Assembly (NCBI RefSeq): GCF_000003815.2
Contig: NC_049991.1
Span: 11,816,917 to 11,880,916, forward strand
DNA length: 64,000 nucleotides
Source of the DNA: Branchiostoma floridae
Taxonomy: Eukaryota; Chordata; Leptocardii; Amphioxiformes; Branchiostomatidae
Direction of reading: 5' to 3'
The notes beneath the pieces were generated by a model. It searched no databases and was not told the DNA's origin. It worked only from the letters and a program-made list of their open reading frames with translations. Shown here in pieces: positions 8,901 through 60,186 of the stretch (the stretch's first letter is position 1; every line of letters starts with the position of its first letter). The translations under genes were made by a program, and so were the position numbers.

Positions 8901-9358
8901 AGACCTCTCGAGTCGTCTTCAGACCCAGAGTCGTGGTCTGACACGTCATAGTGGTTGATGAATGTACTTCTCTCTCGAAAAGCACCCAGGGCAAATGTTT
9001 TCAGTGCAATATCAGAGTGAGTGGGAGTGTTTCTCTGGGTTTTGTCAAAAACACCTGTTTTCTCTTCGGGAGTAAGCCATCCAAGTCCGAATATACAGTG
9101 ACCGAGTTTGCACCATTCCAGTCGCAGGAAACAGAACAATTCTTCTGTCGTGTCATATTCGTTGGCATTCCGTGGCTGTACTTTAAATTCTGTACTACGG
9201 ACAGCGTCTTGGTTCCACGTCTGACCGCTGTTTAAAGTGGTCTCAGACACAACACGGGAGTTCCTTTTCATGAAGCGGTCCAAGCTCTTTCGAACATCGC
9301 TATCTAGGGACCGTTCCAACGTGACAGTCACGGACAGGGGGAACGCTGGTTCACTCAT
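2920..9358 (-). CDS. Cellular RNA-dependent RNA polymerase, complete (paralogue B)
   Basis: Nine coding exons (minus strand) join in frame: 9358-8723, 8546-8086, 7841-7677, 7357-7208, 7003-6878, 6753-6383, 6145-5885, 5579-3691 and 3135-2920, giving 1424 residues. All introns are GT-AG. The QDE-1/EGO-1 family hallmarks appear in order: TPTRLMF (exon 3), FSDGIGKIS near residue 558, YGGVKG and VRPSMMKF near 594-621, LNRQVI at the start of exon 7, and the metal-binding MSGGDLDGD with DLDGD at residues 827-831 (bases 5257-5271). These enzymes make double-stranded RNA from single-stranded RNA in the nucleus or cytoplasm. The N-terminal 212 residues have no family motif I recognise. The last exon encodes a KH-like segment and a basic end. 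The start is the first ATG of the open exon; the exon 2 acceptor was chosen at 8547 because the alternative at 8539 breaks frame. It appears intact and is probably functional. Confidence 0.93.
3381..3458. repeat. Near-perfect 37-bp-arm hairpin in the last intron of RdRP B
   Basis: The arms are 3381-3417 and 3422-3458 with a 4-base CTAA loop. They differ at two positions out of 37. It lies in the intron between the 5579-3691 exon and the last coding exon (3135-2920). It looks like a tiny foldback MITE; no clear target-site duplication is visible. Confidence 0.9.
7523..7657. mobile_element. Foldback MITE in an intron of RdRP B
   Basis: The ends are ACTCTCC and GGAGAGT. The outer arms carry GCAGAGGTTG and CAACCTCTGC, and the centre is a perfect palindrome built on CGGGCGCTCTT. 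The element lies wholly between exons 3 and 4 of RdRP B. The AACCTCTGCTTGGAGA end is shared with the element at 54476-54633, which points to one family. Confidence 0.8.
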
Positions 9359-24715: not shown

Positions 24716-27535
24716 ATTTCAGTTGACATATCTTTGATATTTCTGGAATGTCTAACCTTCATCGATCATCGATGTTCCTTGAACGTTTTTTCCTTTTTCA
24801 CATATCCACCCCTTATGGACCCTCTCTGGTTTTCTCGTGCATGAGACAGATCCAATAGTCGAACGGATATAAAGAATGACATAAGATAAGATAATCTGAC
24901 TTTATATATATATATATATACATGTACATTTGAAAGTACGGTCTGTAGACATGTAGCATAGGGCCATCGACCTAAGACATGTGAATCATATATGTATAAT
25001 GACATCATTATGAGATTTGATACTCAAACTTGGCTTCCCCTGTCCGTTCATGATTGGAGCATTTGACCACCACCTTGACCGCAATTGAATTGACCCTATT
25101 AATTACCCACTGCCGTTAGTAGTTGTTGATATCGCCTAAAAATAGACGCCGTTCCAAAAATTGTAAACACAAACCACACACGAAGTCGTGGTTTCGAAGA
25201 TGATGTTCAGATAATGTCAATATTGAAAACTTACTTTGTAATCATCATCACATTGTTATGAAACATAACTGGACTGGAAAAATAAGAAAGAACATAGGCG
25301 ATATTGATAACAGATTGGACATCTTATTTTCTGCAATTTTATGGAGAACGGTAGATGTCGCCATTAGAATTTAATGATTGTATTTTATACCTGAAATGAC
25401 CCTTAATCATTACAGAGCAAGCAAACTTATAACTATTGCATCAGACTGAATTGTAGGTTGCATTAATCGGACCTTTAAAAAACTTACTACATCGATACTT
25501 AGTCTGCACTTTACGTTCATCCTAGTGAATGTTCTGCCTTAAAAAAAAAGTTAAGAAAAGAAAACAACTTACTATTTAATTTAACTTTGCACAATTGCCA
25601 CGTTTTCCCTACCACAAGTCCGCCAAATACTATACCCAGAGGCAATATTTACAGACCGCTTGGCTGTATTATCATAGGTGTTGCTCAAATATTAGTCATT
25701 CCGGTTCTGCCTATCGACTTCTTGGAGTTGGACATTATTAACGGACCGTTTCCCGCGGGATACCCGTGACGTCAATGGAAACGTAAACCCCCTTACTTAT
25801 TCTTATGCAAATATTCACCTTTGACCCGCCAGTAAGTTTCCCAAACTTTCCCCAGCTTGGGACGGCCGACGACGTGTCCTGGGGTACCCTGGTCTTTTCA
25901 GCGCTCTCCGACGCTATTTCTGGACAAAACTGCGAAAATAACATATTATAGACGAGCAGAGGATATTTACGAGCAGTTGGACCTGAACCTGTGGTAAGTT
26001 TGGCTCACATAACGGTGATGTTTGAAGGTGGTTTGACCTGAATGACGAGGCGTAAAGCGTCAGGGGCATGATTATGCTGACCTTTTTTGCAACCACAACA
26101 CGAAGGCTTCAGTTTCTTATGCCGCCTTAATGGTAGTCTTGGTTACTAACCTGAGTTGAAAGGACTCTGAATAAGATACTAATAGAGTGTGGGAACGTAT
26201 AGGAGTCGCACAAGCTTGTTTACTTCACTGTAGTAGCGTTACAGGGGAAAAGTAGCGGGGGATTACACTTTGTTGTTGGCGGCGTGGTCGGCGCATGGCG
26301 GGCCGGAGGTACTCGGGGGGAAAGATCACCGGTTTTCCGGTACAAAAATTAGAAGCCATGCAATTGAACAATTCTCTAGAGTGGTAGATTTCCTTCTCAT
26401 ACTGACGGCACAACTTATCTTCTTGTTACTGAGTCGGTAAAACAGCACAAAATTTGTCCCCGTGCAAGACAGTCTTGCTGCCTCGTGTTTTGTAATTTTT
26501 CGTAGCGTTCCGACACCGTCGTGTTTCCTTTCTCCAAATCATCAGAACCTCATCAGTTGTATTCTCCCGGCGATAAGAATTTATTACCCGTAACCATGTC
26601 TAGACGATCGTAACATTTCTAACGTTCTCATTTTTTTATACCGAGCCTGAAACACCGAAGACCTGAACAAAAAAAACTCCCCATCATGCGCTATTGTTGT
26701 CACCCCCCTCCCCACGAATCCCGCCCCCCAAAATAATGAAACGTGTCAACAAAGCAAAATACAAACAACTGATAAAACAGAAGATGTTCAAACAAGTGAC
26801 AAGTTCACAGGAGATAGGTTTTATTGCATCGGGGAACTGCCAAGTGGACTATTGAACTTCCGCTGTAATACCGGTATGTCTGGGGAAGGTTGTCATCTTT
26901 AGTAGGTGTCAGGATAGTGTTGACATAAGCAAGCACCAGTCACTAATGTTTACTTGCCCGAGCGTAGATTAGCCGAGAGTTCTAATTACTCAGCACTTCA
27001 AGATCAGATAGAGGCATTGGCTGGTAACGGTACACCACAAGGTGCTGATTAGTGAAGATTATTTATGGTGTTCGGTGCCCCCTGGCACTTGTGTATCTCC
27101 TACAGTCATTCCCAGACCTGTTGTACAACCGGCTGATAGTGGGTGTTGGTGCGGAAAGGTAACTAAACATAATACATTATTGCATGGGTCACTTGATGTA
27201 CTTTGTGCCTTAAACCACAACTGGTTTCAAGGGATTTGTTCCTTGTAATTTGTTTGTATCACATAAGAGGTTTACTGCCATTGTGACCTAGCACACTCAG
27301 TTTGTACTTTGGTACCTTTGTTAGTATAATCTGTATGAGGCTAGGCTAAAGTGGTTATCCCAACCCTGTATTCTCAACTTGAGGTCTTCAAGAAACTTGG
27401 ACCTTGGTCCAATCTAGCAGTTACTTGGCAAATCATACTTTGTAGCACATGCAGAAGCAAAGAATCTTCCTAAACTCAAAGAGGTATAAAAAAAATTATA
27501 AATTATACATCGTAAAGGTTCTGTACCCTGGGAGC

Positions 27536-27685
27536 CAGATAGGACCGGGGAGCTAGCGAGTTTTGTTGGGGGACCCAAGGCAGTCAGCCCGCAGATCTCA
27601 CATTAGTGCTCCTGGGGAGTTATCGCTAACCTTTAGAAGGGTAGATAAACTGTCCTAGCTGCCCGATCCCGGCTGGCTCCCAGGG
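27536..27685. mobile_element. MITE, CCCTGGGAGCCAG family, copy 1 (TA duplication)
   Basis: The element starts CCCTGGGAGCCAG and ends CTGGCTCCCAGGG, flanked on both sides by TA, consistent with TA target-site duplication. A longer copy of the same family lies at 47753-47991 in the opposite orientation. Confidence 0.85.
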
Positions 27686-28067
27686 TAAGGTTCTGTTACT
27701 CAGCATCCTTTCCCTATGACTTGCACTTTACCTTGTGTCAGGTAAGAAAAAGGGCCTCCTCTGATAATGATCACGTCAAGTGTGAAAGCAATCATGTGAC
27801 ACTTTTGTAAATAATGAGATAATTTCATTTACAAACAATGGACTGATGAAATGAGGTGATAATTACTTTCCAGATAAGCACGTCCCCCATGGCCAGATAC
27901 GTAATCCTCTGTTGCAATGACATTTTATCAGAATTTTAGTGTTGTTGGTTGTTGGAGGATGAAACTTGGCTGGAAACAAGCAAATTTTGAGGTATTAAAG
28001 CAAGATTACCTAAAGTTGAAAATTGACAAGGTCTTGTTGATCATACCAAATTGGTGCAGCGAGTGCT

Positions 28068-31474: not shown

Positions 31475-31675
31475 GAAGGGTGCACGTGATTTTTTTCCGG
31501 CCAATCAGAACGCAGACATGGCGCCGTCATAGCTATAGGCAGACTATAGGGGACAATGTTTTTATCCCACATTATCTTCGTTTTCTTGGAGATGGGGAGA
31601 TTTTTAGAGGCAAAGGTTGTACCAGATTGTCAGTGAGGCACCCAACTGTCATCAGAGTGTTCTTACTTCAGACAG
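31475..31675 (+). promoter_or_regulatory. Promoter and non-coding first exon of the transposase-like gene
   Basis: An E-box CACGTG (31483-31488), an ETS site TTCCGG (31495-31500) and an overlapping CCAAT box (31501-31505) cluster here. The segment ends in GACAG followed by GTACGT at 31676, a good donor that can splice to the AG before 32569, two bases upstream of the start ATG. The transcription start is inferred, not observed. Confidence 0.5.
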
Positions 31676-32570
31676 GTACGTCGCATATTTTCAATTTTCG
31701 TGCCGGTAAATGTATGAGATTTAGCTCCCTTTAACGAGACATTAGAATTTTCTCGATTTTATGCTGTTTTCAACGGTCTATTTCGAGGTTTTTTGAAAAG
31801 GTACATATACAATCTTCATATATTTGTATAGTGCGTATCTTAAACTCCTTAAAAACGTGATTGAACCTGTCTGTACCTGCCACCGTTCGGCCGCTATTAG
31901 ACCAAATCCGTGGCGGTATATCCCATGCATGTTGAATTTATGCACCCAAGATGGCGGCCGTACTATCGTCTGCAGATCGTCTGCTATCGGTGTTACGTAC
32001 TTTGTAGAGGGTGACGAAATTTACCTGAAATGTTGAGAGTTGCCCTTCATGGGTTTTTCTGAAACAAAACTAGGACCTTGTGATGTTAATTCGGGCTTTA
32101 GAGTGACTTTGTTCGTGTATTATCGCTCTATATGGATAGATATTTGTGTTTACGCTGAAGGGGGAGGGGGGCGGAGAACGCTGTCGAGTATTTTTGTTGT
32201 TTTAGTTTTGACTTGAAAAGCATGCAAAAAAAGTGGCAAATGGGAAGCAGTCTTTCCTCTCCTCATTTTTGATATAGTAAAGAAACTTGTAAAAATTAGC
32301 AGATACTATTCAATAAGATTGTGAGGTTGTGTTTTGTTGTGATCTGATGATGGTGATACATTATTTTGTATACATATTGTATGCATACAGATCTGCATAT
32401 AATAATATTTGTATATTATCAATCCATGTTCATTAGAACCATTTAGAAATCATTTTGATATGTTAAGATTGATAAAATAAGGGATATGACATTGCATTTG
32501 TAATATGAATAACTTGATTGTAAATTACTTTGTGGTTACCAAAATTATTTCTTTTCCCTCCAAATCAGTC

Positions 32571-35500
32571 ATGTCTAGAAGACCACACAAGCCAACTGGG
32601 GACACCCCAAATCCCAGTCCCAAGAGGCCATGTGGGCGTGGGCGTGGACGTGGACGTGGAAATGACCAAGATAAAGGAGTCAGTAGAGAACTTTATCAAA
32701 GTTCTGCTGTTCCTGGAGGCCTCTCGGATGGTAGCAGTACCTCGGTATGTATCACAGTAATCATGTGACATCTTTATTCATTTTCAAGTTCTTGTTGATG
32801 TCAAATGATGCATCAATGTACAGGGCTCAAAATACTGTTTTCTGCATACCTGCATTTGTAACATTGAAAATTACCTGTACCAGACAAATTTAACCTGCAC
32901 CACTTTGGACTAAGGATGTATTAATCATACTGTAAAATTGTTTAGGAATCTTTTCTTTTTTTTCGTTTATAAAAACCAGTACATGGACCAGTGCAGGTTA
33001 GTAAGTGCAGGTAGACATCAGAAATACCTGCACTAACCTGCATATGCAGTTGGTATTTTGAGCCCTGATGTATCATTGTAGTCCAAGTGTGGGCAATAAA
33101 TGTACAATGTACACTTTTTTTCATGTTCGCTTATCCTTTTGGTGCTTTGCTGATAACCCATCAATCTGCTAGTAGCACACATTCTGATTGATTGTTATAT
33201 GCATGTGTAGAACATACAGCGCAAGAAAGCTGATCGTTGGGGAGATGATGAAATTGCTGCCGTTGTCAAGTATGTGGCGTTGTACCACACTGTGGAAGGA
33301 ACGTCTGAAGGGAAACAGTGGCCAACCGGAAATGACTCGTCAACTCAGCCATTTTGGGAAGGATGTGCACGCTTTGTTGCTGAGGAAACCGGGAAACCTC
33401 CTAGAACAGGTGAAGTCAATGTCTGTTGCATTACAGAGACAAGTGTTTTCTCTATATGCTGATGTAGTCTTTTATTTTTTGTCCTGTACATTTTAGACAC
33501 AAGATGATGATATTGGAATGATGTGTCAATAAAATTGTAATATTCAATACATTTACTGAGGCTTTTTATTGTTCTAAGTGCATCTCTAAATTCATTCATA
33601 CAGCTGGTGGATGCAGGACCCTCACGTTTCGAGTGCTAAAGAAGGACTATACAACTGTCCATGAGGCAGAAGAGCACTACAACATCACATACACAGGAGA
33701 CACACGTCAGAAAGAAAACATCCCAGCAACATCCAGTTCAGCCACCAACACTCCTATCAACTCAATGACAGCACTCCAGGCACGTTACCATCTCCTAACC
33801 CCATCTCAACAGTGGGACTTCTTAGCCAACTGCTTCCAAGAGAAGTTGGAGGAGATGAGACCCAGTCTGCCTGACTTTGTGCCATGTGACTTTTTGAAGT
33901 TGTCAGCTGCGGCCATGGAGACACTACGCAAGCATGGCAGGGAAAATACAGTGTATCATTTGGCACATGCATTAGGCACTCCAAAAGATGACGGCAGTGG
34001 TCCCCGCATGCCTGTGGACCGAATGCCCTTTCCTCTGATCGAACACAACGCTAAGTTTTTCTCAGTTGAGCATCCCGACTTGTTGCGATGCCCCAAAGAA
34101 TATCTTGCCTACATGGAAACAATGTATGCCCACTTTGGCAACAAATGGGCATCCCTCCATTCTGGCCCTATGTGGAGTGGCATTGCTAATAACGAGGAAG
34201 ACAACAACGAAGAAGAAGAAGTAAGTGACATACAAGGAAAGATGGAGCTGCTAGCCATTGCAAAGTGTGCTGCACCTCAAGGACCATTTGATGTGCTAGC
34301 TGAGGCAATGAAGGAGATAGAAGGGGATCTCGGCGTTGCACCCATGCATTGGGAAGAAGATGACGTAGGAACCGAAACCTCAATTCCATGGATACAACAG
34401 GAAGATTGGGAGAAGGATTTACCTCCACCAGGCACATCAACACCATTGACATCTATCTCAATTGAAGCTACAGCTCCACTGGTCCCTTTGACACCATTAC
34501 AAGCTATGCCAACTGAGGATACAGCTCCACCAGTCACGTCAACACCATTGAAATCTGCCTCTGCTAATGATTCTTCATCATCAGAACACACCGGGTCCCG
34601 CAACTACTCCTTCCTCTTCTCAACAGCTTCACAAGCAGACCGGAGAGAACTACAAGAGTGTTTACCAGTTGAAGAAGTCCACAGATTTCACAACATCCAG
34701 CCAGCAAAGCAGAAGAAGTCAAGAGAAAGATTGAAGACAATGGATGTATGTTTACTTTTTTTATGACATTTAAGTTGACTGTTATCACTGTGGTTTATCT
34801 GATATAATTTCACCATTTATTACATGTTTGTTTTGCTGATTGTGCCAATTCTATAAGAAGTTATCAATATTGATAGGTGGTATTTCCATGTTTTTGCAGG
34901 CCAGGGTTAATGTTGCAGGAGTTTCCGGCAGAACACTAAGAAAAAAAATCAGCGCAGCGGAATTCACGTCTAATGCTTCAATTCAAGTAAGTAGTACCAG
35001 CTTTATTACAAGGAATGTAATGCATTTGTGGCAGGTCAATTCACATTTGTTATGTTTTATTTTAATGTCCAAAACATTAAAAATGCCTCCAGATTGGGGT
35101 TGTCCTTTAATTCATTTATTGTCTATTGTTACTTGAATTATCTATTGCAGATCCAAAAGCAGTTCCTGGAATACTGAATAGTAGTCCGTTGTGACAATTA
35201 ATGTGTTCAACTTTTCCTACCCAGTTCACCATGCTGAGCCAAGCCCATGCCTCCAACCCAGATGGCCGCTGGTGGGTGAAAGCGGACGCATGCGATATAA
35301 AGGCAGGCCTTCGTGAGTCCCTGAAACACCAGTGGTCAGGGGACACAGATCTAGGCGAGGGGAAGTTACAGGAAGCAGAGAAAAAGTACCAATCTCAACA
35401 AAGCTTTGTCTCGAATCTGGGTCTCGGTAACCGTGCAAACAAAGTGCAGTTCTCAAAAGATCTTGTTTGCTTGTTGGCAATAGTCAGAGAACATAAAGAG

Positions 35501-38500
35501 TTCCTGCAAAGCAATCTGAGTGAAACAGAGAGATTGTATAAAAAAAAGCAAACAGAGCTGAATGCCTCAGCAGACTCGTTGTTTGCGTTAGGATGGGAAG
35601 TGGACAGTTATAAGAAGCTCCTGGCAGTAAATGTCGAAGTGACATCCACAATGCAAAATATGGTGGATGCCCTGAAAGCAGGCAACTTTCCAGGCGGGTT
35701 GCGGGAACTTAGAGAGAAGCTGAAGTGGTACTTCAAAGGAGTCCACTCCAAGAAGAGGGAGGCAGCCAGCCACCTTATGATCTTCATGATCAGTGATGAG
35801 CAGCGTAATATGAAACCATACGCTGTTCCAGTTAGAGTCCTCCCATGTAGAGTTGTCAAGGATGAACAGCTGCGAAACCTCAAAGATGAGCTGAAGACAG
35901 CAATGGAGGCCATCGGCATGGTTGTTGTTGGTGAGATATATTGCTGCTTTGTTGTTTTCATGCAAAATCACCATACTTTTATATTTCTAAAGGTGACCAA
36001 AGTTTCCCAATTATTCTTTTTGCCGGTGTGTAGCACCAGCTTTGAATCGACAGAAGCCGTTTGTCAACCGTTTGTTTGGATGCATGGATCGGTCAATTTG
36101 ACCAAACCCTTCTGATAGCCCTTTTATACGCATGATTGCATAATTGAGTCAGTGTGGCCGTACTATATGTATAACAGTTTGCTTCTGCAGCCGTAGATCT
36201 TGGATTCGAACCCCACATGCTACAATTTTTTTTCTTTGTTAGACAAATCCCATGTACTGTTTTTTTTTTAAATAGAAGCAAGACCAATTCAGCAATTCGA
36301 TGTTTATAAACTCTTCTTTAGTGTGATTTTGTTAAACATCCAGGCTTTTTCCAAAATACGCACCGGCCAGCTTTTTCAGAAGCTTTCTTGTTTCAATATG
36401 AATGAAAATATCAATATTGAGGTATAAAGTGCATGTGAATTTGTTTGTCATTCTCGTCTGAATTTCTGAGATATGTCTCTGACCCCATTCAGGGTTTGTC
36501 ACTGATGGGGAGTGGAATTCCCTGAGAACAATGGGAGGCAGCAGACCAGTCTCCATCATTCAACTGATGATGGAGGCCAAAGCACAGGCAAGGTCCCTGA
36601 CAGCAGCTAACATTCGGAGGTACCTGACATTAAGAGGTAAAGACCTTTCAGAAGCTTGTTTGTTGGTTCACTTGTCAGTGCTTTAAATGTATGGTCTAGG
36701 TGAAATTGGAGTTGTGCAGGTACTTGCAATGTCTTCCTTTACAATGCCTACACTTGTCCTCTTATATGTGTACTTTTGAAGATATTCAGTAACATGGACA
36801 ATTCTGTTAACAAAACCAATGTATGGGCCATGTTGTAATTGCTTGTTGAAAACATTAGATATCAGGTGCTCCCATGCATTTGCAGGTAAAACTTTTATAA
36901 TGGATTTATGATGGATATTTCTTGTGTTACCTTCACCAGGTAAAGTACAATAAAAGAATCTGAGGCCTACTTGTGACAGGCAGATGATATGTTTACCCAC
37001 AAATCCCATTGCTAATGAAGAGTTTCAAAGGTTTGTCATGTGCAATTCTATCTTCCAAAATAGTAATAGTGCATGTTAACTTCACATTCTAGAGGATGCT
37101 GCTAACCCCCTCCCAGTGGTTGGACATGAGGCTGTTCCATTGGAGGATGTGATATGGTTGGCTACATTCATCAGAGACAACAACACAACCTTTGAGTCAG
37201 CTATTCATGTCCTGCGGAGGAAACATTATCCATTCGTGATGTACGATCCACATCCATGGACTCCAGGTTAGTCTCTCTATCTGTGAAAGAAGACACACTT
37301 TTTGTTGACAAAAGTTTCTGTCTTCAGTCTTGTGATGTTAGCTTGTGATGACATTAAAATGATAATATAACATAGCATTGTGCATCGCAACTGTTCCAGT
37401 ACAATTCCTTGATCAGACTGTTAGCCCTTGATAATTGAGCATTTGCTTCCAGATTAAAATGACTTAGGAGACCCATTGTTTATTTCAGGGAGAAAGAACG
37501 AGACAACAGCAGACTGCCTTAAGTCTGTTATGGCAACATACCTGTTTAGAAAGAAGGTTGATGACCTGAAGCTAACAGGTGTGGACTTCAGTCAGAACCT
37601 TTATGTTCCTGAGCTAGGCGAGAGTAAGGAGCCTCACTTCGACAGAGAAGACCACGGACATGTACTGAAGAGGTTGACGGCATGTGTGAGGGCAGGAACT
37701 GTCCCAGGCATTGACTTGTTGAGGTTAGCTGCTTGGGTGACATTTATATTTGTGGTGACTGGTTAGAATTGAATGTTTGGTGCTAGGATGTGGGCAACTT
37801 GTTTTGTGCCAATATGTACTTTGGGGGATGGAGTCACTTTTATAGAAACTTTGTACACATGATAATACAGTAGCTGCAATTAAAGCATCAATACATAAAA
37901 GCAGGTATACATTTGTAATTTTCACCATGTCATCTGTTTCTGTTGATAGGTGGATTGAAGCCATGCAGAATCCCAATACTGGGCTGACATACACGGCATT
38001 AACAGGAAAGAGGAAGCAGTCGGTGGTAGACTGTGAGCGGATGTTCTCTGCTGGTGTAGTCTCCTTCTTCAAGGACAAGGGCTACACCACTGAAGCAAGG
38101 TGTGTACACTCTGTGCTTAGATATTTTCTGTATCTCTTCACTAATGAGGACCTTCTGTTATTTGCTTGACATATTTCCCAATAGAAAGTATAAATGAAAT
38201 GGACGGTCTTGGTAAAATAGGAAATCTAACAATGATCTTCCCTCCCAAAAATTGTTTACGGTCCTAGATTTGCGGAAACAGTCCTCAACTGGCATAAAGC
38301 TACAGATGGCCGGGGGATCGATCAAGAGACCAGGAAACAGTACAACCGCGCAATGCTTTCATTTCTCCTGGAAGACTGGATGCCCTATGACTGTTTCTTC
38401 AAAGGCGAGATCAACTATGCCATGCTTGATGTTAACAGGTGTGTATACATACCCACTACATGCATATCGTTTGTATTGTCATGTGTCTTGCGGGTTCTTG

Positions 38501-39481
38501 TTTCCCCATGTTTTAGATCAGTACAAGTAATGCATCAAAATATTTATTGTTAACAGGCCAATCAAGGGCATCCAAGGGCTCACAAGAGAGGTTGTCGTGG
38601 CCCTCCTGTGCAATATTGAGAGTCAGGAGCAGCGGAGGCACATGACCACTACACATGGACTCCCTCCGGAACATCCCAGAGCTGGAACATCTGATGACGT
38701 GGAAGCGTTCATTGCGACACTACATGGGATGCTGGGTCCAATCTTTGACCATAAGACTTTCAGGGAAAATTTCAGGTAATGTGAGAAACTTCAACACAAA
38801 TAAGTTGCTTAATACGAATTTTATTCAGATAATGAGGTAGAGATATATATACACAGAAAGAATGTATGGTCTATACTATTATCTTACATGTTGTTTGGTT
38901 CCTGAAAGCTCCTATACAATGGTTCTTATGTCAGATGAATTAGCTTTATCGGTGACATTGATTGTAAAAAATAGATTGGAACATCTTGAATCTACCATGA
39001 TTTTGTACATGCTGCTGTACAGTACAGTATTTTACAATGTTCAAAAGAAATGATTGTATGTATGTATTTACAGTCAAAATATGTCAAAACACATTCTTAA
39101 CAACACAGTATGTTCACTGCTTTGATACTTGCTAACAATACATCCCATGCTATTTTTACAGAAGGTAGTATATCTAACACCATTATTTCCTGTCTTTTCC
39201 CCCATCTTAGGAAAATCTGCCATGAATACTGCAAGAGGCTAGACCAGGACCTGCCTTTTTGGTACCACACCGGGATCAATGAGAGGTTCCAGACAAAGCT
39301 GCCCTCCTTTGACCAGCCGTCAGGTGCAACTGAACGCCTGGATCGGACAAGGGTGTCTAAGTTTGCAGATCCTGGGATCGACAACCCTTGCCGGGTCCAA
39401 ATGCCGCGCAAGGGAGCGAGAACAGTCAGGAACCAATTCCATAACCTAGAAGAGCGGCTCCCCCCTCCCCCCCAGGCCTAG
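32571..39481 (+). CDS. Putative P/THAP9-like (Academ-like) RNase H-fold transposase, 12 coding exons
   Basis: In-frame exons: 32571-32744, 33211-33409, 33604-34745, 34900-34986, 35225-35930, 36493-36636, 37093-37266, 37489-37723, 37950-38099, 38268-38438, 38557-38775 and 39211-39481; 1223 residues, all GT-AG, no stops. The N-terminus has an RG-rich patch (about 20-30) and a Trp-rich, Myb/SANT-like stretch (about 67-124). I read residues 550-1160 as a DDE transposase core: KADACD (D555/D558), strand-helix-strand MIFMISDEQ...YAVPV, GFVTDGEWNSL (D774), DHGHVLKR (930-937, compare DxxHLLK of THAP9) and TSDDVEAF (E1110, compare QDxxExxF). It resembles uncharacterised multi-copy invertebrate proteins I have seen. 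Catalytic assignment is inference. It converges on the nuclease gene at 39489-43076, which suggests a shared element. Confidence 0.8.
32821..33067. mobile_element. hAT-like MITE in the first coding intron of the transposase-like gene
   Basis: It starts CAGGGCTCAAAATAC and ends GTATTTTGAGCCCTG, a perfect 15-bp inverted pair. The interior carries CCTGCA-rich inverted blocks. CAGGGCTC ends are typical of hAT relatives. No clean 8-bp duplication is visible. Confidence 0.85.
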
Positions 39482-39488
39482 ACATCAA

Positions 39489-42400
39489 CTATTTTACCCA
39501 TTGTGATGCCTTAACTACTGCAGGTTCCCATTTGCCCTTCTTTGTAATGAGTAGTTTCATATAGTATCCTGGGTGAAGGAACTCTGTTCTCAAAGTGATG
39601 TTCCCAGCTCTTACACATACCAGTCTGTCAGTGTTGAGAAGAGGATGTACATATTGCGTTAACTCTGTGACAATGTACCCAACAATCTCTGGTCCTTTGT
39701 CTGTGTGAAGGCGCACTGCAATGGCATTTGCATCGTAGAAATTGTCTGGGTCTGGTATGATATCTACAGTTGGAGGCTGAGTCATTTTTCTTCCTATCAC
39801 TAATACCTCCTGTCTTCTCAGTTTTTTGGTAACCCCCATAACTTTGAAAGCTATCTCATGTTCTCCATCATCGTCGCCACTGTCCGAGTCAGAGTCATCA
39901 CTCTCCTGATCAGTAGTGTATGCTGCATCTTCTGGTGTGTTGCCGGAACTAATGGTTGCCTGAGAAAACTGAGACATGATGTCATCTGAATAGTTATCAG
40001 GCAGGGAGAAGAAGTCCCACTCCCAAACTACAATGTATGACTGACTTTCGTGTTTTATTGTACATGATTTTTGTATTGTGATGTCAAATGGAGGTGTTTC
40101 TAAAAGTACTCTGTGGTCCGAGGCTTTGAACAAACAGGGCGAATGAGGTGTATTGTGTTCTGAAGATAGTGTGCCGGTTACAAAATCAAGTGTCATGACG
40201 GGGAAGCATGGAGGTGTCCACTGGAGCCCCTCGCCAATGCTGAACACAGTTGAAACTGGTGCTTGTTGTTGACTTCTCAGGTTGTAGTGGTTGGATGTTG
40301 TGGAGTCTGTGTCACTGCTCGGGTCTTCAAATGTTTTGTCAGTCTGGTCTGAAAGGCAAAAAGTCAACAAATTGTTACTGTAAATTGTAAATAGCATACT
40401 ATAGGAAATATAATTCTTCAGGAATATCTATATCATTCTCTGAGCATTTAAGTCCTGATACTAAGTTTGGTTCAGAGTAACTTTACCTGTTCTGTTCAGC
40501 ATCTGCTCACTGATCCAAGTTCGGCTCAAGTCAGCAATCGGTGCTCCAGATGGTGGTCTGATTACTTGTTAAGAAAAAAAATTTCTTGGACAAATGATAA
40601 AGACATCATGTTGTATGTTACAGCAGAAATACCCTTTTCACACAGGTGTGATTTAAAACTATGTATAGGGACAGAATTGCAGAATAGTGAAGGATACAAT
40701 CCAGCATACTCCATGTCTACAGCAGACATGCCAGGTGGATAGTCATGCAGCGGTACATATCCCTTGTCAGGATGGAAGACTGTCTGGTGGGTAAAGGTGT
40801 TCACGGCCATCTTCAGTTTTTCTGGATAACCAGGTGGAACTGTGATGTTACTCCTTCCTGTGATCCTGCCTATGTTCTTGATTTGCTGTATTGTAGAGAT
40901 GTACATTTTGTCAGAGAGAAAGCTACAATTGTCAAAGACATATTTGACCACTGTATAGAATTGTTCATGTAAGTGAGTGACTGTCCCTGCACCAGTTCAG
41001 ACCAAGGAGCTTCAGCAACTTCTGACAAATGTTACCCTTTGTATTGGAAGTACTTATGAATGTGATGACACTTTATACAAGTTAAGACCAATAGACATTG
41101 TGATGGGGGAAGACAATGATTTATTACTTAATGAAAGGAAATGTTACAACTAAAATCATTGAATACTGTAGCAATGTATGTAACTCTCACTTTGAAAATA
41201 TCCCCATCTCCAACTGACTTCACAAAGGTTGCTGCCCTCTTAAGTCCAATGCTTTCAATGGACCCCAAGTAGTCACATCCTGAAATAATACACATGTGCT
41301 GGAACTTTTCAAAAGTGAACTGTGGGAAGTCAGGATATGACCTGTACAGGTGATGGTGAAGGATGAGCTGCCCATCGTGTCCATCCCATTTGTAGATAAC
41401 CTGTAGTAAAACGGTAAAAAGTGTTTTTCACCATCAGTGTTGCATTTCTTTGAATGTCATGGCATATAAAAGAGTAATTTAAGATAGTGAGGAGAATATC
41501 TTTTAAAATTGCAATTGGAACATTGTGAAACAACATTTTATCATACCTTTTTAGCGCCATACACCAACAGGTCTGAGTCTTCAGTAATCACGTAGTCTGC
41601 TGCTCCACTCATACTCATGAAGGCTAGTTGTGGATCAGCTTCATACGGCGCCATCAAGTAATCCACTCCTCTGTCTTTCAATGCCTGCAAATAATGAATG
41701 AATGTAGACCTTTACTACACATACATACCCACTAGGTTAAGGATAGGTTGCAACAAAATGATAATTGACAAATACGTGGACTATAGAAGGATCATATTCT
41801 ACTATGTGAATTCAACTTCATCTCACTTTGTGTCAGTGAAAATGTTGGAACAAACATGTTTTAAAATCGAAGGGCTGTCTACATTTAAAGGAATATGACG
41901 TTGTATGTATAAGATTTCACCATGACTAAAATTTGATGGAAAAGACTGGCCCTTTATACCTAACCAACTTATTATGCAACTGGATTTAAGCAAGTAAGCA
42001 TGTAAAGTGGAACACTCACCTTGATGACATTGTCTACCATCTCAGGTTTTACTTCTAGGCCATCTTGGCAGTTCCTGTCGAACCTTGTGGTGTTTTTCTC
42101 CATAAGAGCGAAACGAGCAAAGGTCCTGGCCTTTTGCCTGTCCCTGGATGAACAAAAATTAGTAAGTCAAAACATTTCTAAACTTGCTGTGTCTCTTCTG
42201 TGGGCACCAGGCTATCAAGATTAAACATGAGTAATCAAATTTATGTTCATAAATTGATGACATTATTCAGGACAAGTTAAGATTCAGCCATGCTACAACC
42301 GGGACCTGTTGACACATTGAACACTGTTCACACTCTGGATCCACAGAGAAAAATTTCTGATCTGCTACCACAGTAAAATAATATTGTCTACCATCACAGT

Positions 42401-43076
42401 AATCAGTGATGAAAAAGAATCAACATAGATTCTGAAAAATTCAACTTACTGTTTACGTTTTGCCGTCAACTCAGCCTTGGCTGGCAATGGATTTCGGCCA
42501 TCAAACACGACAAGTGGGGTTACTCCATTTCTGAGAAGAATCTCAATTCTGCCCATGAAGTATCTGATGTAGCTGAAAAGTAAATAATAAGTATGTGTAA
42601 ATGAGTTTTCTATCCAACCTGGTTATTAACAACAACAATCTTTATTACCAGTTCATGCCCAAAGGCTAATTGCAGACAAAGTAAAGTAGTGGTGTACATA
42701 ATTGTATATTTTACAGAGAAGGAAAATGAGAACTATAGATAAATCAAAAGACAAATAGCGTTTAATCTAAATCTATTTATTTGATTGGATTGACTTACTG
42801 GTATTTTCCGTATTCAGTGGGAGATGAACCATCCAACATTATCATCAACAATAGCAGAATTGACACCAAGCCCGAGTGTTCTAGTACATTGAAGACTACA
42901 CAGTATGGTACACACCTGTCTACTGGCCGTCCAAGGAATACCTCTTTGGCACATCCAATTAGTCCACTGTGGAGCCAGCAGGATGCATCAATGGCCACCA
43001 CAGTTCCAGTCATGTCCTCTATGTTGATGGGTTCTGTAGATTTCTTGAGCTCTGGCAACAGACCTGTGATACCCAT
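39489..43076 (-). CDS. EXO1/FEN1-type nuclease with C-terminal HIRAN-like domain
   Basis: Eight coding exons: 43076-42916, 42572-42450, 42143-42020, 41684-41547, 41400-41191, 40885-40698, 40557-40487 and 40348-39489; 624 residues, all junctions in frame. The first 340 residues follow EXO1: N-terminal MGITGLLP, VAIDASCWLH (D30), VVFDG (D78), PYEADPQLAF (E151, D153), TEDSDLL (D172, D174) and SGCDYLGS (D225). All seven metal-binding acidic residues are present, so a 5' flap/5'-3' exonuclease activity is expected. After an acidic Ser/Asp-rich linker (about 485-507), residues about 508-600 contain DNFYDANAIAV and VGYIVTEL, the pattern of HIRAN domains (HLTF/Rad5), which bind DNA 3' ends. Human EXO1 lacks this domain. 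The start matches the EXO1 N-terminus, which must be free for catalysis. It is convergent with the transposase-like gene. Confidence 0.88.
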
Positions 43077-44068
43077 CCTACTGTGAAATGTATAGATCAA
43101 ATGGAAAAACGTAAAAATTGGTGTTGCAACAAATATATCAATTCCTTTCTTGGTCATTTATACTGACAAAAAGACCCCTCACACCACGTATTTGAAATGT
43201 ATGTTGTCTATAATGAATATGTTCATAAACATATCAATAACAGCAAAGAAATAGTTTTTGTCTGTATCTCTTCACAGCATCTTTGTAATGTATGCTCGAG
43301 GATATGCATAGCCACAAACATGTGAAAACACAAAGAATTTCGCACTACCTCTCATCGTTATTCAAATGCAAAAATACACGTATGCACATGGTGTCCGTGA
43401 AATAATACCACCCAAACTCTACAGAACGTCCAATAGTTTGCAAAGTTGACAAATTCACGACTACTGCTAGTTGACTTGACAGAATTTCATACACAGTATG
43501 TAGATAAACGTCAAACAAAATAATGGGGCGACCAAAGAGACTCCCTCGCTTGGACCGATCTACCGCCCCCCTCCCCCAAACAACGAAGCGTACGGACGAA
43601 ATTTTGTAGAACAAATCGTGCATCTGCAAGTTACAGCGATCTCTATTATTATCAACCCTATCATCAACCCCGACTTGCATTACGGAGAACTATAAGGAGT
43701 CTGTCTAATATCCCGAATAATCTGTGCATAACAAGTTTTGACGCCTGTGTTTTCTTAAATTTTTAGACCGCCGAGACGGTCACAAAACATCACCGATTGC
43801 ATTGAAATAACGATTAATTTTAACCGTAAGAAAAACGCACAAACAAAAAAAAACTGTAAATTAACGTTCCTACTAACCTTTTGTCTTCTGCGCGATCAGC
43901 GATCGCAGGGAAACTCGCTCAAAACACGATGGACTCTCATGCAACGGTCGCGCCAGCGGCTATGTTGTTTTCAATCTGGAGCAGCAAAACACGTCCGTCA
44001 CCTACGGCTGCCGGAAGTCAAATGAAAGCTGCCCGCGCTTCTCAGTCGGGGGTCACGTGATACCCATC
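43077..44068 (-). promoter_or_regulatory. 5' region and promoter of the EXO1-HIRAN gene
   Basis: A minus-strand donor (AAAAG then GTTAGT) at 43878/43877 can splice to the acceptor at 43082/43081, leaving four untranslated bases before the ATG at 43076. Upstream lie an ETS site (ACTTCCGG on the minus strand, about 44011-44018) and an E-box CACGTG (44054-44059) in CpG-rich sequence. The transcription start is inferred. Confidence 0.5.
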
Positions 44069-44069
44069 C

Positions 44070-47000
44070 CACACCATCTGATTTCATCCATTGTACGCTT
44101 CTTCTGGGTCATATCATGAAGATGTATATACATTGTTACATTGAACGTGTATATTTACTACATGTACATGTAACATGTATGTATTGCAATTTGAATATGA
44201 TATGATATAACTGTTTTGATGGTGTTGTTTGTTGTGCTTGTTTACGAAGATAAGATATACCTGTAACTAACTTTACATAATGACAGGTGAGTTTCAACAG
44301 GATGATGTCATTAGGCAAAGTAGTACAGTGTAGCTGTTACTTTTGTTGTCATGGTTTGTTTTGATAGTGTAAGTCAGTATTAGACCCTTTGTTCTAGTCT
44401 ATCATTTTTGCCAACACTTCCTATTGTAAGTTTGTGCTGTACTGTCAGTACAGGTAAGTTAACTGTTGTGTTATCGCTAGTTTGAAGTGTGTGGATGGAT
44501 GGATGCGTACGTAGCGTGTAATAGAATATACCTGGAACAACATTGTAAGCCCTTTCCCACAGCATTTTAGTCAAATTAATGTACTAAGATGAGTTTATTT
44601 TGTTATTTATACAACTTGTAACTTGCATCCTGTTCTTAGTACAGATATTCTCATGTAGTGCATTTGGAGCCAGTAGCTATTCATCTTGCACAGGTGACCA
44701 TAAGAGTGGGGACCTTGCCGATTCAATTGTTTTGTTGCAGTTTGTTTGCCTTGCAAGCTGACCTGTCCTACATAGCACTCATTGACCCCTGGAATTTGAA
44801 TGGTCAGTTGTCACACCAGATTGACACTAGACATACTTGCAGGGTTAACAGGTACGGCTTCGTTTCACCTGACCACGCAGTTTACCTAACCTTACCTGTG
44901 CTGAGAGGAGCAAGTAAGGACATCTCTGTATTGTCACTATGGTGTTGTGATCATATGTTAGTTATTGTCATACCGATGTGTACATTCTGTCTTGACTTGC
45001 TCCAAGACTTGTTTATGCTGTACCTTGAATGCAGTGTTTGGGACCGAAGGTACTTTATCATCATTATTAAGTATGACCTTTTGTGCTATTGAGGCAATCA
45101 CTTGCATCCTTGTGCAGTGCTAAAAGCCTTCTTTGCTTCTTTGTAAGTTTGTTTCTGGAATGCAAGGTCAATATGGAAGTAATGTTGAGATTTTTGCTAT
45201 GGCTTGGCATTTTAGGAGGTCTCCATATTTTTGCACACTTGTGTTGCATACCTGAGAAGCCTGGGAACTTGTGAGGCCTTGTAACTACTCTACATGCTAC
45301 TTGTGTAGGCTGCTGGGATGTAGGACAGTAGGACACATATATGGTAATTTGTGAGCAGTGCTAGCTTCTGTTGTTTGGTGACAGAGTTTTTCCATTTTTT
45401 TTACCCGGATATTTTTCAGTGTCAAATTGCCTATGTAAAGATAGTACAGTTTTAGTTAACACATAAATATGATAAAACAGCTGTATTGTGCATTTGTAAG
45501 CATCTACCTTTGAATTGTTTGCAGGTCTGAAATGTGAGAAAAACTCTGATGAACGCATCATTTACATGCGTACATGTAGGAGAAGTTGTTAACAGTTATC
45601 ACAGATTATTATGTGTGAATGAATCAGAAGCTATTTAGAGGGTTGGCACAAAACCACCTAAAGCCCTTTTCTATCTTTGGTCACCTTAACTGATGACCCT
45701 CTGGGCATAACTCGACTCGTAAATTACATTAACTAATGTCTCCAACATTGCCCAATCTGATTCTCGCCACAGGCTTATGTTAATGTGATTTGGATTGACA
45801 AACAAGTCATGTTGCTCTCCCCGCAGACATTCATGCGACGCTGTGCGGACATTATGCATGATTTACGAGCCCCTTTCAGGTGAAACAATGGAGCCGTGCG
45901 TGCCATGTGGTGTAGCCGGCACCATTCCTACATGTATGTACGATCAAGGAGGTTGAAAGAGGGAATGCGATGTAGGACAGCCAAATTTCACTATAAGAAT
46001 ATCAGTTGATGTTTGATTGAGTAGAGATTTTTATGCTGACTTGTCAGAAGAATTTTCTGCAGGTACCTGGTTCGTTTTCTCTACCACTGTTACTGCAGGA
46101 ATCTTGTTTGATACCTGGGATTCTTGTTGCTGATAAAGGAAACCCTCTTGACAAAGCCAAAGTCAACATGAAGTCATATAAAAGAAAGCCAGTGCTAGTG
46201 GGCCCCTAAGCTGGTGTCAAGCAACCAACATACCTTTGATACTAGCTATTGTCTTGGTGGATTATGCTGTATCATGATTAACACGACTTTATGAGCAAGT
46301 TTAGTCAAATACATAGCATAAATCGCAATAACTGATATACAGTATATTTTGACAAGAGAATCACTGATAGCACTGAAAAATCATCTTTAAAACCTTCTGC
46401 TAGTCAGATTTCCTGAGTGTTTCATTACCGAGTTCATTACCAACTGAAATCGTGGTGAACATGTGTTCAGCACAGTGTAACAGGCATATGGCATTGGGTC
46501 TGTGGTTGTGCTTCCAGGCCTATGAGAGAAAAGGGCTCGGCCCCCGCTTCAGCCTGACCATGCCTCGCTGCACTGGTCTACCCCCGCCTTCCCAAGATTC
46601 TAAGATTATAAAGGTGTTTTTTTGCCGCTGTTACTTTGATCAGAGCTTGAGTGTTTGAGACTTCCAGAGTTTCTGTCTTGCATCGTGGTAATCGCCGGTT
46701 TAGATTAAGCGTCTGTACTTATCCTCGTCACATCTTGTACAGGTATTTGTATCACTTCCTATCTGTCTGTAACTTTTCCCATTATACATTAACAGTGTAC
46801 TGAATGAATATTACATCAACTGTAAACTGGATCTGGTATTTGCATTTGTTTGGAGAGAGCACACTAGCTATATATTAACCAAAGCATCATATTGACATAC
46901 CGAGCCTGATCCATTAGATCATAGTGTCACAACATTTGCCAAAACTCTGATATCTCAAACTCTGCTGGCCACTTTTGATAAGGTCAGACCAACTGGATGT

Positions 47001-48350
47001 TGACTGAATGTTGACAGACCCTATATGAACACACCTGAACAAATTTGGCTCTGAAAGTAGGTTAACTATATAGATAAGTTTTATAACTATGTACAACAAA
47101 CGTAGCTTAACAGATATGGCCACATGTACATCCTTTATGGACTGTATCACATTGATAGCTCACCAGATTTTGACCTATAAATGATACAATGCATAAGTAG
47201 TCTTCGAGTCCTCTTATTCCAGTGACTGAACAATTTTCCTCGTTAAGGAGTTGATTTTAATGGTAACAGGTACATCTCTCTCTACATGTGTATTTATTGG
47301 TATTCAAAAATATTGTCAATTCTGTAGAGAAGTGCCTAATCTTGAATTTGTAAGTAAAATACATTTCTAGTCATGCAGATGTATAGGTGGCTCCTTGTTG
47401 TTACAGTAAATTGTGACTGGTTTAGGCTGAGATCCATGGCATACTTCCAAGGACTTGAAGGTAATTCACGGGAATGATAACAAGGACCTTCCGGTATTTG
47501 CTAGAATTACAGTGACACAGCCTGACCAAGGGAGAGTACGTGTCTGTTTTCTGCATGGTGCGCGTTACCAGGCTACGGGTGGTTTAGACAGAAAACCGTT
47601 ATATAGTCGTGTTACTGTTCTTGTCCATTATGTCTCTGGCTATGGTATTTTTAGGCTGTGTTAAGAGTTTTTTTCCTCAATTTGTGTGCTTCCATCTTGG
47701 ACCTGGTCATGCAACCCTTCAACATAAGAGTTAGACTGACCAGGTGCAGGTACCCTGGGAGCCAGCCGGGATCGGGCAGCTAGGACAGTTTATTCGGTGG
47801 CCCAAGACAGTCAGGCCCTCCCGATCTCCTATTAGTGTCCTGGCAGTTTAAGCCCGATGAGGTCCACCTGCCCTAGCGATAACTCCTTCAGGCTTAAACT
47901 CCCGGAGCGCTTATGTGAGATCGGCGGGCTGACTGCCTTGGCTCACCGAACAAAAACTCGCTAGCTACCCGGTCCTGTCTGGCTCCTAGGGTAAGGTGCA
48001 GGGGGGATGTGTAACGTTGCTGTGGATTGACTCTCCTGGTCAATTATTTCCCTTTTCGATCCATATCCCAGGAACGGCTGGTTTAGACTTATGTTGTACA
48101 CTCACGATTGCTCATGATGTAGGTTTTATTTTTTGGGTTGATCAATGTCAGTTCCTATCAACAGAAGTTGAACTTGATGATAATAATGCATGTAGAACTT
48201 AGGAGCATGTATTTGCTATTTTTCTTGTCTTCTAGTATTACATAACAAAGTTAAAGAAAGATAAAGCAAAGCATACAAGCATATGAAAGAATCGTGTAGT
48301 GCTAGCATTGTGTAGCTATGGCAGCAGAATAACAAAAGTTCATTTGTTTT
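44070..48350. other. Non-coding stretch upstream of the Kir gene
   Basis: No recognised coding exon. It contains one MITE (47753-47991). Kir 5' untranslated exons or regulatory sites may lie here but cannot be placed from sequence alone. Confidence 0.45.
47753..47991. mobile_element. MITE, CCCTGGGAGCCAG family, copy 2 (TA duplication)
   Basis: It begins CCCTGGGAGCCAG and ends CTGGCTCCTAGGG between TA dinucleotides. Its left arm (CGGGATCGGGCAGCTAGG) matches the right arm of the copy at 27536-27685, so the two copies are in opposite orientation. The middle has a further inverted pair around TTTAAGCC and GGCTTAAA. Confidence 0.85.
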
Positions 48351-48468
48351 TTCAGGAGAAGCTCTGAAGCTACCAGCATACTGGGAAGTAAACCCGTGTG
48401 TCAACATGGAACTGTGAAGCCAGTGAAGGTCAGCACTGGCTCAGTCTAAAGGATTTGAAGCTTACAAT

Positions 48469-49870
48469 ATGCCAGAGTTTCACGGAAATAAAGATCGCTC
48501 ATATTTCACGATGGATGGTGGGCCCACGAGGAACGGGCGGATCCCTCGCTCCCCGCCTCTCCATCAACACAGTCAGATGAGCCTCATCTCCGACTCCAGC
48601 ACTCCGGGGGAACGCACTCCCATGAAGAAAGCCTCCATGACGTCATCGGAGGCCGTGGTGCGGCGGCGCTGGCCACGCTTCGTGAGTAAGGACGGGACCT
48701 GCAACTACAGGAACCACCACGTTCCCATGTACAAGAGGAGGTACGTTCGGGACTTTTTCACCTCCCTGGTGGACCTGAGGTGGAGGTACAGCATCATCGC
48801 CTTCTCTGCTGCGTTCGTCTTGAGCTGGTTCTTATTTGGAATTGTTTGGTACATTGTAAGCTTAGTACATGGAGACTTTGCCCATGTTGATGACCCTGAC
48901 TTCCAGCCATGTGTCAGTGAGATGAGGGACTTCACGTCCTCCTTTCTCTTCTCACTGGAGACACAGACAACGATCGGCTATGGTTCTCGCCACGCACGAG
49001 ACAACTGTGGCTTTGGTGCCTTCCTCGTAGCTTTCCAGTCCATCGTGGGACTCATCATCGACACATTGATGATTGGCGTCTTCCTCACAAAGCTTGCCAG
49101 GCCAAAGAAACGTGCGCACACTTTGCTGTTTAGCGAGCAAGCTTGCATCGCTAACAGGGACGGAAAACTCTCACTCATGTTCCGTGTCGCTGACATTTCG
49201 TAGGAGTCACATTGTAGAAGCCCACGTTTCGCGTTCTTTGTTGTTTCGACACCACAGAAAAACTATGGAGGGCGAGGAACTCTATTTGAACTTTGAAGAC
49301 GTCAATGTCGGATTCGACAAGGGTACAGACCGTGTCTTTCTCATCACCCCAATTACAATTGTTCATGAAATCGACAAGGAGAGCCCGTTCTATGACGTCT
49401 CCGAGGACAGCCTGGCGAAGGAAGACTTTGAAGTAGTTGTCCTGTTCGAGGGTATCTTAGAAAGCAGCAGCTACACGCTTCAAGCCAGGACCTCGTACCT
49501 GGCAGACGAGATCATGTGGGGTTACCACTTTGATAACATGGTGACCTGCTCAGAGTACGGTTACGAGGTGGACTACAAAAAGTTTAACAAGACACACCCA
49601 ATCCCCACCCACGAGTACAGTGCACGGATTCTCGATGCACACCGGTCGTCCCTGTCCCTGGACAGAGACGTGGACAACAACAGGCAGGGAAAGACCCACG
49701 TAGACAGGGTAAGAGATGACGATGACAGGGGAGTGGACTCTAAGAGACTCTCCATGGCACTGGCCTATGAGAATGAAATACACACGATGGTGTGCAGCAA
49801 CAATGAGTGGGGACAAGGTGATCATACGGCGGTAGAGAATGGAAAAAAGGTGACCTGCACAAAGCTGTAG
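48469..49870 (+). CDS. Inward-rectifier K+ channel (Kir2/Kir3-like), one-base frameshift
   Basis: An exon opens after a TTTTTTCAG acceptor at 48355, and the ATG at 48469 starts a Kir protein. It has a cytoplasmic N-terminus with a conserved basic/Trp stretch (about 65-100), TM1 (about 106-132), conserved extracellular Cys (148, 180), selectivity filter TIGYG (168-172), and TM2 (about 183-207) with D198 at the strong-rectification position. RPKKR (211-215) is a phosphoinositide-contact region. The frame stops at 49201-49203 after 244 residues, but the cytoplasmic domain continues in the +1 frame from RRSHIVEAHV to the TAG at 49868-49870. One surplus T in TTT at 49196-49198 explains this; without it the length would be 466 residues. 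The end TKL fits a class I PDZ ligand. An assembly error or a null allele are equally possible. The rest is well conserved, which argues against an old pseudogene. Confidence 0.9.
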
Positions 49871-60089: not shown

Positions 60090-60186
60090 GCGACTCTAAA
60101 ACCTATGAAGCTACCGCCGACGCGCTGGGGACGCACAGGTAGATTGTTTTACAAAAGCTTCTACGCACCCACCTGTCTGTTCTTAT

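Follow-up and report, generated by a model that had tools for sequence, protein, structure and literature searches.

Facing Transposase-Like and EXO1–HIRAN Genes in Branchiostoma floridae: A Possible Stranded Member of a DNA Transposon Lineage

Introduction

Transposons with accessory nucleases are already known, as described for Academ and for lineages of Kolobok. Academ includes AcademX, which encodes a nuclease and makes target-site duplications (TSDs) of 3–4 bp, and AcademH, which encodes a helicase and makes TSDs of 9–10 bp (PMC10045372). The Kolobok lineages KolobokE, KolobokP, and KolobokD carry accessory nucleases (PMC9587614). This report concerns a stretch of 64,000 nucleotides of Branchiostoma floridae DNA (NC_049991.1, positions 11,816,917 to 11,880,916), hereafter the window, in which gene A, encoding a transposase-like protein, faces gene B, encoding an EXO1-like nuclease with a C-terminal HIRAN domain.

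A first-pass annotation of the window had described two complete, intron-rich genes that face each other with stops 7 bp apart, and spliced models bear this out. Genes A (+ strand) and B (− strand) are complete and convergent, the two stop codons are separated by 39482–39488, all 18 introns have GT-AG borders, and both spliced frames are free of stops. Splice sites in these models were picked by hand, with no transcripts used. We consider the chances even that A and B represent an old copy, now stranded, from a DNA transposon lineage with a DDE-type transposase and a facing HIRAN protein, possibly domesticated as a pair. The origin of the pair from a transposon is supported: the convergent arrangement of transposase and HIRAN genes recurs in a young family of the same genome that has inverted ends and 9-bp duplications, and is thus that of a mobile unit.

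A Young Mobile Family With the Same Convergent Arrangement

The young element is about 12.4 kb long. It encodes a multi-exon homolog of the transposase and a HIRAN gene convergent with it, is bounded by inverted ends of about 33 bp, and makes target duplications of 9 bp. Its copies lie on contigs C1, C2, C7 (two copies), C9, C15, and C168, and the main matches of these seven are 98.7–99.6% identical; loci at C6:27.146 Mb and on C233 give protein matches to A similar to those of the young copies. The left end is CAAGGGGGGATTTGCATATATCCCATGATGCAC, and the right end, CAGGGGGAATTTGC, nearly repeats it in inverted orientation. When the genome was scanned for this motif with up to three mismatches, 23 sites were found, including outer ends at the copies on C15 (c15) and C2 (c2), versus none for a reversed control.

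Six transposase-bearing young copies have both ends; the left end of the copy on C168 was not found. In a first reading, exact 9-bp direct repeats flanked three of these six (c7a, c7b, and c1) and none was seen at c9, c15, or c2. Once the outer ends from the motif scan are used, exact 9-bp repeats are seen at c15 and c2 as well. They also flank a 758-bp copy on C7, in which 68 bp from the start of a c9-type sequence are joined to 692 bp from its end. Exact 9-bp TSDs are thus present at six of the seven loci read at both outer ends, with no match at c9, a tally in which the outer ends of c15 and c2 were sought only after the inner ends had failed. The family has multiple near-identical copies with common ends and target duplications, as expected of a mobile transposon. 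Copies with common boundaries and short target duplications, which the first-pass annotation had named as the sign to look for, therefore exist for the young family (9 bp, 6/7 loci), but none were found for the window copy.

Two further features of the young ends were observed. Their inner part (TATCCCATGATGCACCGCGG on the right) resembles what we take to be the ZNF143/Staf promoter motif, and the ends may double as promoters. In addition, the 9-mer GTGGAAGCT flanks both the left end of c9 (C9:7204223) and the inner right end of c15 (C15:14926972), as though a single insertion had come to lie at two separate loci through recombination, partial duplication, or an assembly join.

Assignment of Protein A as a Transposase

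A search with 720 residues of A in the 513-Mb genome gave 71 matches, with the best 62 of 115 candidates scored. Among these, the matches fall on the window exons, on decayed fragments, of which contig C6 has many, and on the one family of near-identical copies described above. Protein A is called a transposase because it is homologous to this multi-copy mobile family. In an alignment of the window protein with those of the C1:31.73 Mb copy and c9, identity to the window is 36% (C1) and 38% (c9) over rows of 657 and 675 amino acids, and the motifs W.K.D..D, TDGE, and DDVE are invariant in all three members. Asp555/Asp558, Asp774, and Glu1110 are therefore candidate catalytic residues, which may act as a triad.

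The first-pass annotation had ascribed an apparent RNase H-fold transposase core to A. Homology to the mobile family upholds the transposase part of this claim; for the fold there is a weak, sub-threshold Pfam match, that of TNP-like_RNaseH_N around the second Asp in 3/3 family members (best E 0.026). Alone, protein A gives no convincing Pfam match and none above the cut-off in Pfam or NCBIfam, and a search of the Protein Data Bank (PDB) with the transposase profile gave five matches (E 0.23–2.6), with no transposase among them. A search for relatives of A among phage records and viral contigs led nowhere.

An EXO1-Class Nuclease Fused to HIRAN in Protein B

Judged by its sequence, protein B is an EXO1-class nuclease in residues 1–315 and a HIRAN domain in its C-terminal part. 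The nuclease module is identical to human EXO1 at 130 of 312 aligned residues (42%) and scores 227–231 bits against five EXO1 sequences versus at most 67 bits against the other 32 of the 37 PDB sequences found, which include FEN1, XPG, Rad2, and GEN1. Asp30, Asp78, Glu151, Asp153, Asp172, Asp174, and Asp225 align with all seven metal ligands of human EXO1, the numbering of which is assumed here. Together with Pfam matches to XPG_N (E 1e-19) and XPG_I (E 9e-18), this agrees with the earlier description of a Rad2/XPG-family nuclease with all catalytic residues. Protein B thus has the seven acidic metal ligands of the Rad2 family and a nuclease of the XPG/Rad2 type, the type to which the AcademX nuclease presumably belongs.

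The Pfam HIRAN score is 24.7 bits in whole B, equal to the curated cut-off, and 28.8 bits on the excised domain, which is above it. A profile made from five HIRAN segments of the genome (window, C1, c9, c15, and C17), all of which match Pfam HIRAN at E ≤ 1, finds five HLTF HIRAN sequences (E 0.086–0.13) as its sole PDB matches up to an E of 10, and a PDB search with the window HIRAN segment alone gave none. A structure model of the last B exon by itself is uninformative (mean pLDDT 36.9). A conserved extra domain between the nuclease and HIRAN was also considered, and was rejected: the window sequence matches a young-family profile no better than do its own shuffles.

HIRAN and Nuclease Genes Beside the Transposase

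Three lineages have a HIRAN gene that faces the transposase, namely the window, the copy at C1:31.739 Mb, and the young copies c9 and c15. The C1 locus is an independent, decaying copy with the same convergent arrangement, and its HIRAN score is 24.6–25.2 bits around the cut-off of 24.7. The nuclease is distributed differently. In c9, c15, and the C1 copy it was not found by tblastn, which gave only a 28-residue piece, alike in c9 and c15, at E 0.16; in a six-frame search (frames of at least 20 amino acids) the best frame outside the window had an E of 4.3, versus ≤5.6e-23 for six window frames. Elsewhere, among all 28 candidates scored, the EXO1 module is found only in C6 relics (3.99, 4.00, and 28.0 Mb) and in a probable host EXO1 gene on C3. 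No helicase match was found in five open reading frames, or parts of them, of c9 and c15, nor in genes A and B. Whether the two window genes always occur together, as the first-pass annotation had asked, is thus answered in part: convergent transposase and HIRAN genes do recur in three lineages, but the nuclease was not found in c9, c15, or the C1 copy by the searches above.

On the transposase side, c9 and c15 hardly differ along 9.4 kb (halves 99% identical), whereas on the HIRAN side blastn aligns them solely over the final 0.4 kb, where they are 78% identical. Despite this, the HIRAN proteins of c9 and c15 are related to each other. Because the transposase halves are near-identical and the HIRAN halves are not, the accessory HIRAN gene looks exchangeable between the young subfamilies in a modular manner. 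A further multi-copy HIRAN family was also observed (C17:17300780-17301448, C13:3283981, C12:16883116, C2:22453347, C2:27038090, and C15:3192486); it scores 19.9–20.6 bits, below the cut-off, and carries one internal TAG in five of the six matches and none in that on C15.

That A and B are two ordinary host genes which face each other by chance, with no transposon link, is very improbable. Both are intron-rich, have promoter-like motifs, and lie between an RNA-dependent RNA polymerase (RdRP) gene and an inward rectifier potassium (Kir) channel gene, as host genes might; however, a transposase homolog with a convergent HIRAN gene is present in the young family, whose copies have inverted ends and are flanked by target duplications, and there are many decayed relics on C6. 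These relics are concentrated in two C6 regions, 19.6–21.6 and 25.6–28.0 Mb, like a graveyard.

Ends and Mobility of the Window Copy

Candidate limits of the window element are 31483 and 44059, close to the outer limits first annotated (31475–44068). The left limit comes from similarity to a relic at C9:21.38 Mb (L085), which covers 31483–31917 at 62% (319/511 aligned columns) and starts abruptly at 31483 (CACGTGAT). Flanks outside 31483 are unrelated between the window and this relic, and the splice donor CAG/GTACGT is common to both. Further in, the left side is also similar to C4:19.15 Mb. The right limit is the end of a 7-bp motif: CACGTGA is present at both candidate ends, with a match of 7 bp only, no target duplication, and differing flanking 9-mers. 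Since this motif occurs at four + strand places within the 64-kb window, its presence in the right place is not rare. A genome search with the right flank (43100–44300) matches only itself.

A scan for terminal inverted repeats (TIRs) and TSDs, tuned on the young family (inverted ends plus a 9-bp duplication, scored out of 30), gave 28/30 at all three young copies given as positive controls (of six). With a 9-bp repeat, the best window score is 17/30, like the chance matches in controls (15–17), and no TIRs with a target duplication stood above noise at the window copy. This agrees with the lack of clear terminal repeats noted in the first-pass annotation.

Other candidate ends were rejected. 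A 20-mer of the young-family end motif has no match in the window with three mismatches, and the one exact 11-mer of that end, at 31917, is internal to the element, 434 bp from its candidate left end. An exact inverted repeat of 43 bp (27645–27687/47751–47793) was considered as the ends of a larger unit. It is formed by two copies of a dispersed repeat resembling a miniature inverted-repeat transposable element (MITE), because each side is a short repeat with its own ends and the left copy has 568 first-look candidates in the genome, 40 of them scored. The MITE-like copies lie at 27524–27688 (165 bp) and 47750–47997 (248 bp) and have their own inverted ends, GTACCCTGGGAGCCAG.

A transposon still or recently mobile, with ends that are short or unlike those of the young family and with genes intact through recent arrival, is an unlikely explanation. 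Full intactness of A and B, the left limit shared with the C9 relic, and CACGTGA at both candidate ends are consistent with it. However, the sole 9-bp repeat with one mismatch near 31483 has its partner at 45834/45835, and with this partner the arms agree at 2–3 of 20 bases; the placement of CACGTGA is not rare, as stated above; the right flank has no second match; and no near-identical copy of the pair was found in the genome (all 28 nuclease candidates and the best 62 of 115 transposase candidates scored). With no TIRs and TSD above noise, an intact mobile element at this locus is rejected, and the pair is probably no longer mobile. Its ends are decayed or of another type, and it is without evidence of recent movement. 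As to the view of the pair as one mobile unit of about 12.6 kb, a transposon-type unit is supported by the young family and the C1 copy, whereas an intact transposon at this locus is not.

Constraint on the Window Lineage

Codon positions were compared between the window and 18 relic loci, 17 of which aligned (L043 did not). For the two nearest relics, positions 1, 2, 3, and noncoding sites differ by 6, 7, 24, and 23%, respectively, from L047, and by 7, 7, 26, and 21% from L048. In L013, L019, and L022, positions 1 and 3 hardly differ (14/18, 16/18, and 17/19%), as expected for long-neutral relics. At the level of substitutions, the codon skew shows selection on the window lineage. Frameshift-size gaps relative to the window, stops, or both are carried by 16 of the 17 aligned relics; L021 has neither. 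Two observations concern introns: the relic at C6:26588442 (L051), which is 65–77% alike, lacks window introns 9 and 10 (compared with window exons 9–11), and the stretch of window exons 7–10 is continuous in c9 and in the C1 copy, so that either the window lineage acquired introns or the others lost them.

These comparisons bear on the explanation that the pair is a dead-end copy, immobile and unselected, that is intact by luck. The copy has no recognizable ends and no near-identical copy was found, as such a copy would. By rough reckoning, however, neutrality since the split from the nearest relics (21–23% noncoding difference) predicts dozens of stops or frameshifts in 1847 codons, and none is seen; moreover, nearly all aligned relics are damaged and the window pair is not. 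This explanation is regarded as fairly unlikely. It is also improbable that EXO1–HIRAN alone has been domesticated, or kept for DNA repair, with the transposase as a passenger. Hosts use both EXO1 and HIRAN in DNA repair, and the nuclease retains all seven metal residues, but the 1223-codon transposase frame is equally intact and contains the family-invariant motifs.

Possible Domestication and Mechanism

The reading preferred here is thus that of an old, stranded transposon copy whose genes have both been kept intact, and the two proteins are candidates for joint domestication. The presence of introns does not point to domestication, because the transposase of young mobile copies is also found by tblastn in several separated pieces; the first-pass argument from introns and promoter motifs is weakened to that extent.

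Several observations weigh against this reading. For the HIRAN partner, the whole open reading frames of c9 and c15 are weak for Pfam HIRAN, at 13.3 and 14.0 bits (cut-off 24.7); the region of B between the nuclease and HIRAN has no significant similarity to the young-family protein; among the matches listed on C6 there is no place where the two genes adjoin and converge; and the further HIRAN family described above shows no transposase in the 4 kb read at C17:17.30 Mb (L087). For the ends, the window reaches 21/30 with a 4-bp repeat (one mismatch) and 22/30 without a repeat, scores that are taken as chance because counts in an earlier ungapped scan resembled those of three block shuffles; the ends of the element may be short or of another kind and so invisible to the scan. 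Finally, the codon skew varies among relics and the compared stretches are short, and the skew is no proof of domestication because past constraint on an active transposon leaves the same trace.

The EXO1-class nuclease appears to have been joined onto the front of a HIRAN protein in the window lineage. The HIRAN domain of HLTF binds the 3′-OH end of single-stranded DNA (PMC11237066), and the EXO1–HIRAN fusion therefore makes a direct, testable suggestion on how the element processes DNA ends. The transposase would cut the element ends and expose 3′-OH ends; the HIRAN domain might dock on these ends; and the fused EXO1 module could then trim the opposite 5′ strand or flap. Cleavage or gap repair would thereby be completed without waiting for host EXO1.

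As a tentative proposal, a chordate may keep a transposase and a self-sufficient EXO1–HIRAN enzyme that finds 3′ ends and trims 5′ strands at a fixed locus, as a working pair, by two-protein domestication; more broadly, HIRAN may be an unnoticed standard accessory of one branch of eukaryotic DNA transposons, to which nucleases are added in some lineages. The genome offers a natural comparison of young elements, in which only a transposase and HIRAN are found, with a lineage that has an EXO1-type nuclease fused on, and such a comparison addresses the question of what large DNA transposons of eukaryotes gain when they encode a nuclease or helicase themselves. Should other lancelets prove to conserve the pair, a host would, unusually, have kept a transposase and its partner enzyme together. 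The fusion may shed light on the processing of DNA ends by these elements or on their takeover by hosts.

Features of the Window

Features of the gene pair and its neighbors are listed in Table 1. The candidate upstream intron of gene A has its donor at 31676 and an acceptor that ends at 32568; that of gene B has the donor AAAAG/GTTAGT at 43877 and the acceptor CACAG, ending at 43081. The RdRP gene on one side of the pair belongs to a class that is rare in animals; apart from its Pfam-matched frame, its frames were read by eye. The Kir channel gene lies on the other side. The DDE_1 transposase frame is uninterrupted and is presumably pogo-like.

Table 1. Coordinates of features in the window (exon borders are those of the spliced models).
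Feature	Position	Strand	Remarks
Gene A, transposase-like protein	32571-39481	+	12 coding exons, 1223 aa
Gene A, coding exons 1-6	32571-32744, 33211-33409, 33604-34745, 34900-34986, 35225-35930, 36493-36636	+	
Gene A, coding exons 7-12	37093-37266, 37489-37723, 37950-38099, 38268-38438, 38557-38775, 39211-39481	+	
Gene A, exon 5	35225-35930	+	First invariant acidic motif, W.K.D..D
Gene A, exon 6	36493-36636	+	Second invariant motif, TDGE
Gene A, exon 11	38557-38775	+	DDVE motif, invariant; contains the candidate catalytic Glu
Candidate 5′ untranslated exon of gene A and candidate left element end	31483-31675	+	GT donor at 31676
Inter-stop spacer	39482-39488	.	7 bp
Gene B, EXO1-like nuclease and C-terminal HIRAN domain	43076-39489	−	8 coding exons, 624 aa
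Gene B, coding exons 1-4	43076-42916, 42572-42450, 42143-42020, 41684-41547	−	
Gene B, coding exons 5-8	41400-41191, 40885-40698, 40557-40487, 40348-39489	−	
Gene B, nuclease module (residues 1-315, exons 1-6)	40698-43076	−	EXO1 match, PDB 5uzv, E 2.4e-67
Gene B, last exon, acidic linker and HIRAN domain	39489-40348	−	Pfam HIRAN 26.1 bits
Candidate 5′ untranslated exon of gene B and candidate right element end	43878-44059	−	TCACGTG end at 44059
Eukaryotic RNA-dependent RNA polymerase gene	3661-9394	−	Pfam RdRP E 4.9e-84 for 646-aa frame 3664-5601
Inward rectifier potassium channel	48427-49870	+	Two long open frames that overlap, the first matching IRK (E 1.1e-52)
DDE_1 transposase frame	58509-60095	−	528 aa, E 1.8e-9

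Comparison With Known Systems

A HIRAN-carrying transposon or a HIRAN–EXO1 fusion was not met in the titles and abstract starts listed by searches of open-licence literature, and either may stand in the main Academ paper or in Repbase. The transposase of these elements is like those of the P element/THAP9 type in its weak TNP-like_RNaseH_N match, seen in all three members and below the curated cut-off; this Pfam family is, we assume, linked to P elements. P elements make TSDs of 8 bp.

The elements are like Academ in having a large DDE-type transposase, to which the window lineage adds a Rad2/XPG-family nuclease, as in the nuclease-encoding AcademX. The young sister family is like AcademH in its 9-bp TSDs, a likeness not shown by the window copy. 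Only HIRAN was found beside the transposase of the family with 9-bp duplications, and the TSD length of the nuclease-bearing lineage is unreadable at the window locus, where short TSDs look no different from chance. In contrast to AcademX and AcademH, no nuclease or helicase was found in the parts of the young copies searched, and the possible link to Academ is drawn from these descriptions. The constant accessory domain of these elements is HIRAN, which is not named in the cited description of Academ (PMC10045372). Kolobok likewise combines a transposase with an accessory nuclease, which in KolobokP is downstream on the opposite strand; in the description cited, however, the Kolobok nucleases have lambda-exonuclease-like, His-Me, and DnaQ folds, and HIRAN is not named (PMC9587614).

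The HIRAN domain of B has in common with that of HLTF (PDB 2mzn, 4xzf) the core N..D.NAI, and the family profile retrieves nothing but HLTF from the PDB (E about 0.09). Unlike HLTF, gene B has no SNF2 motor, and the window has Asp at the position of the first residue of the HLTF Asn-Asn pair. The nuclease module of B is like the catalytic domain of human EXO1 (PDB 5uzv, 3qea, and others) in its 42% identity over 312 residues and its 7/7 metal ligands, but unlike human EXO1, B ends in a HIRAN domain in place of the EXO1 tail.

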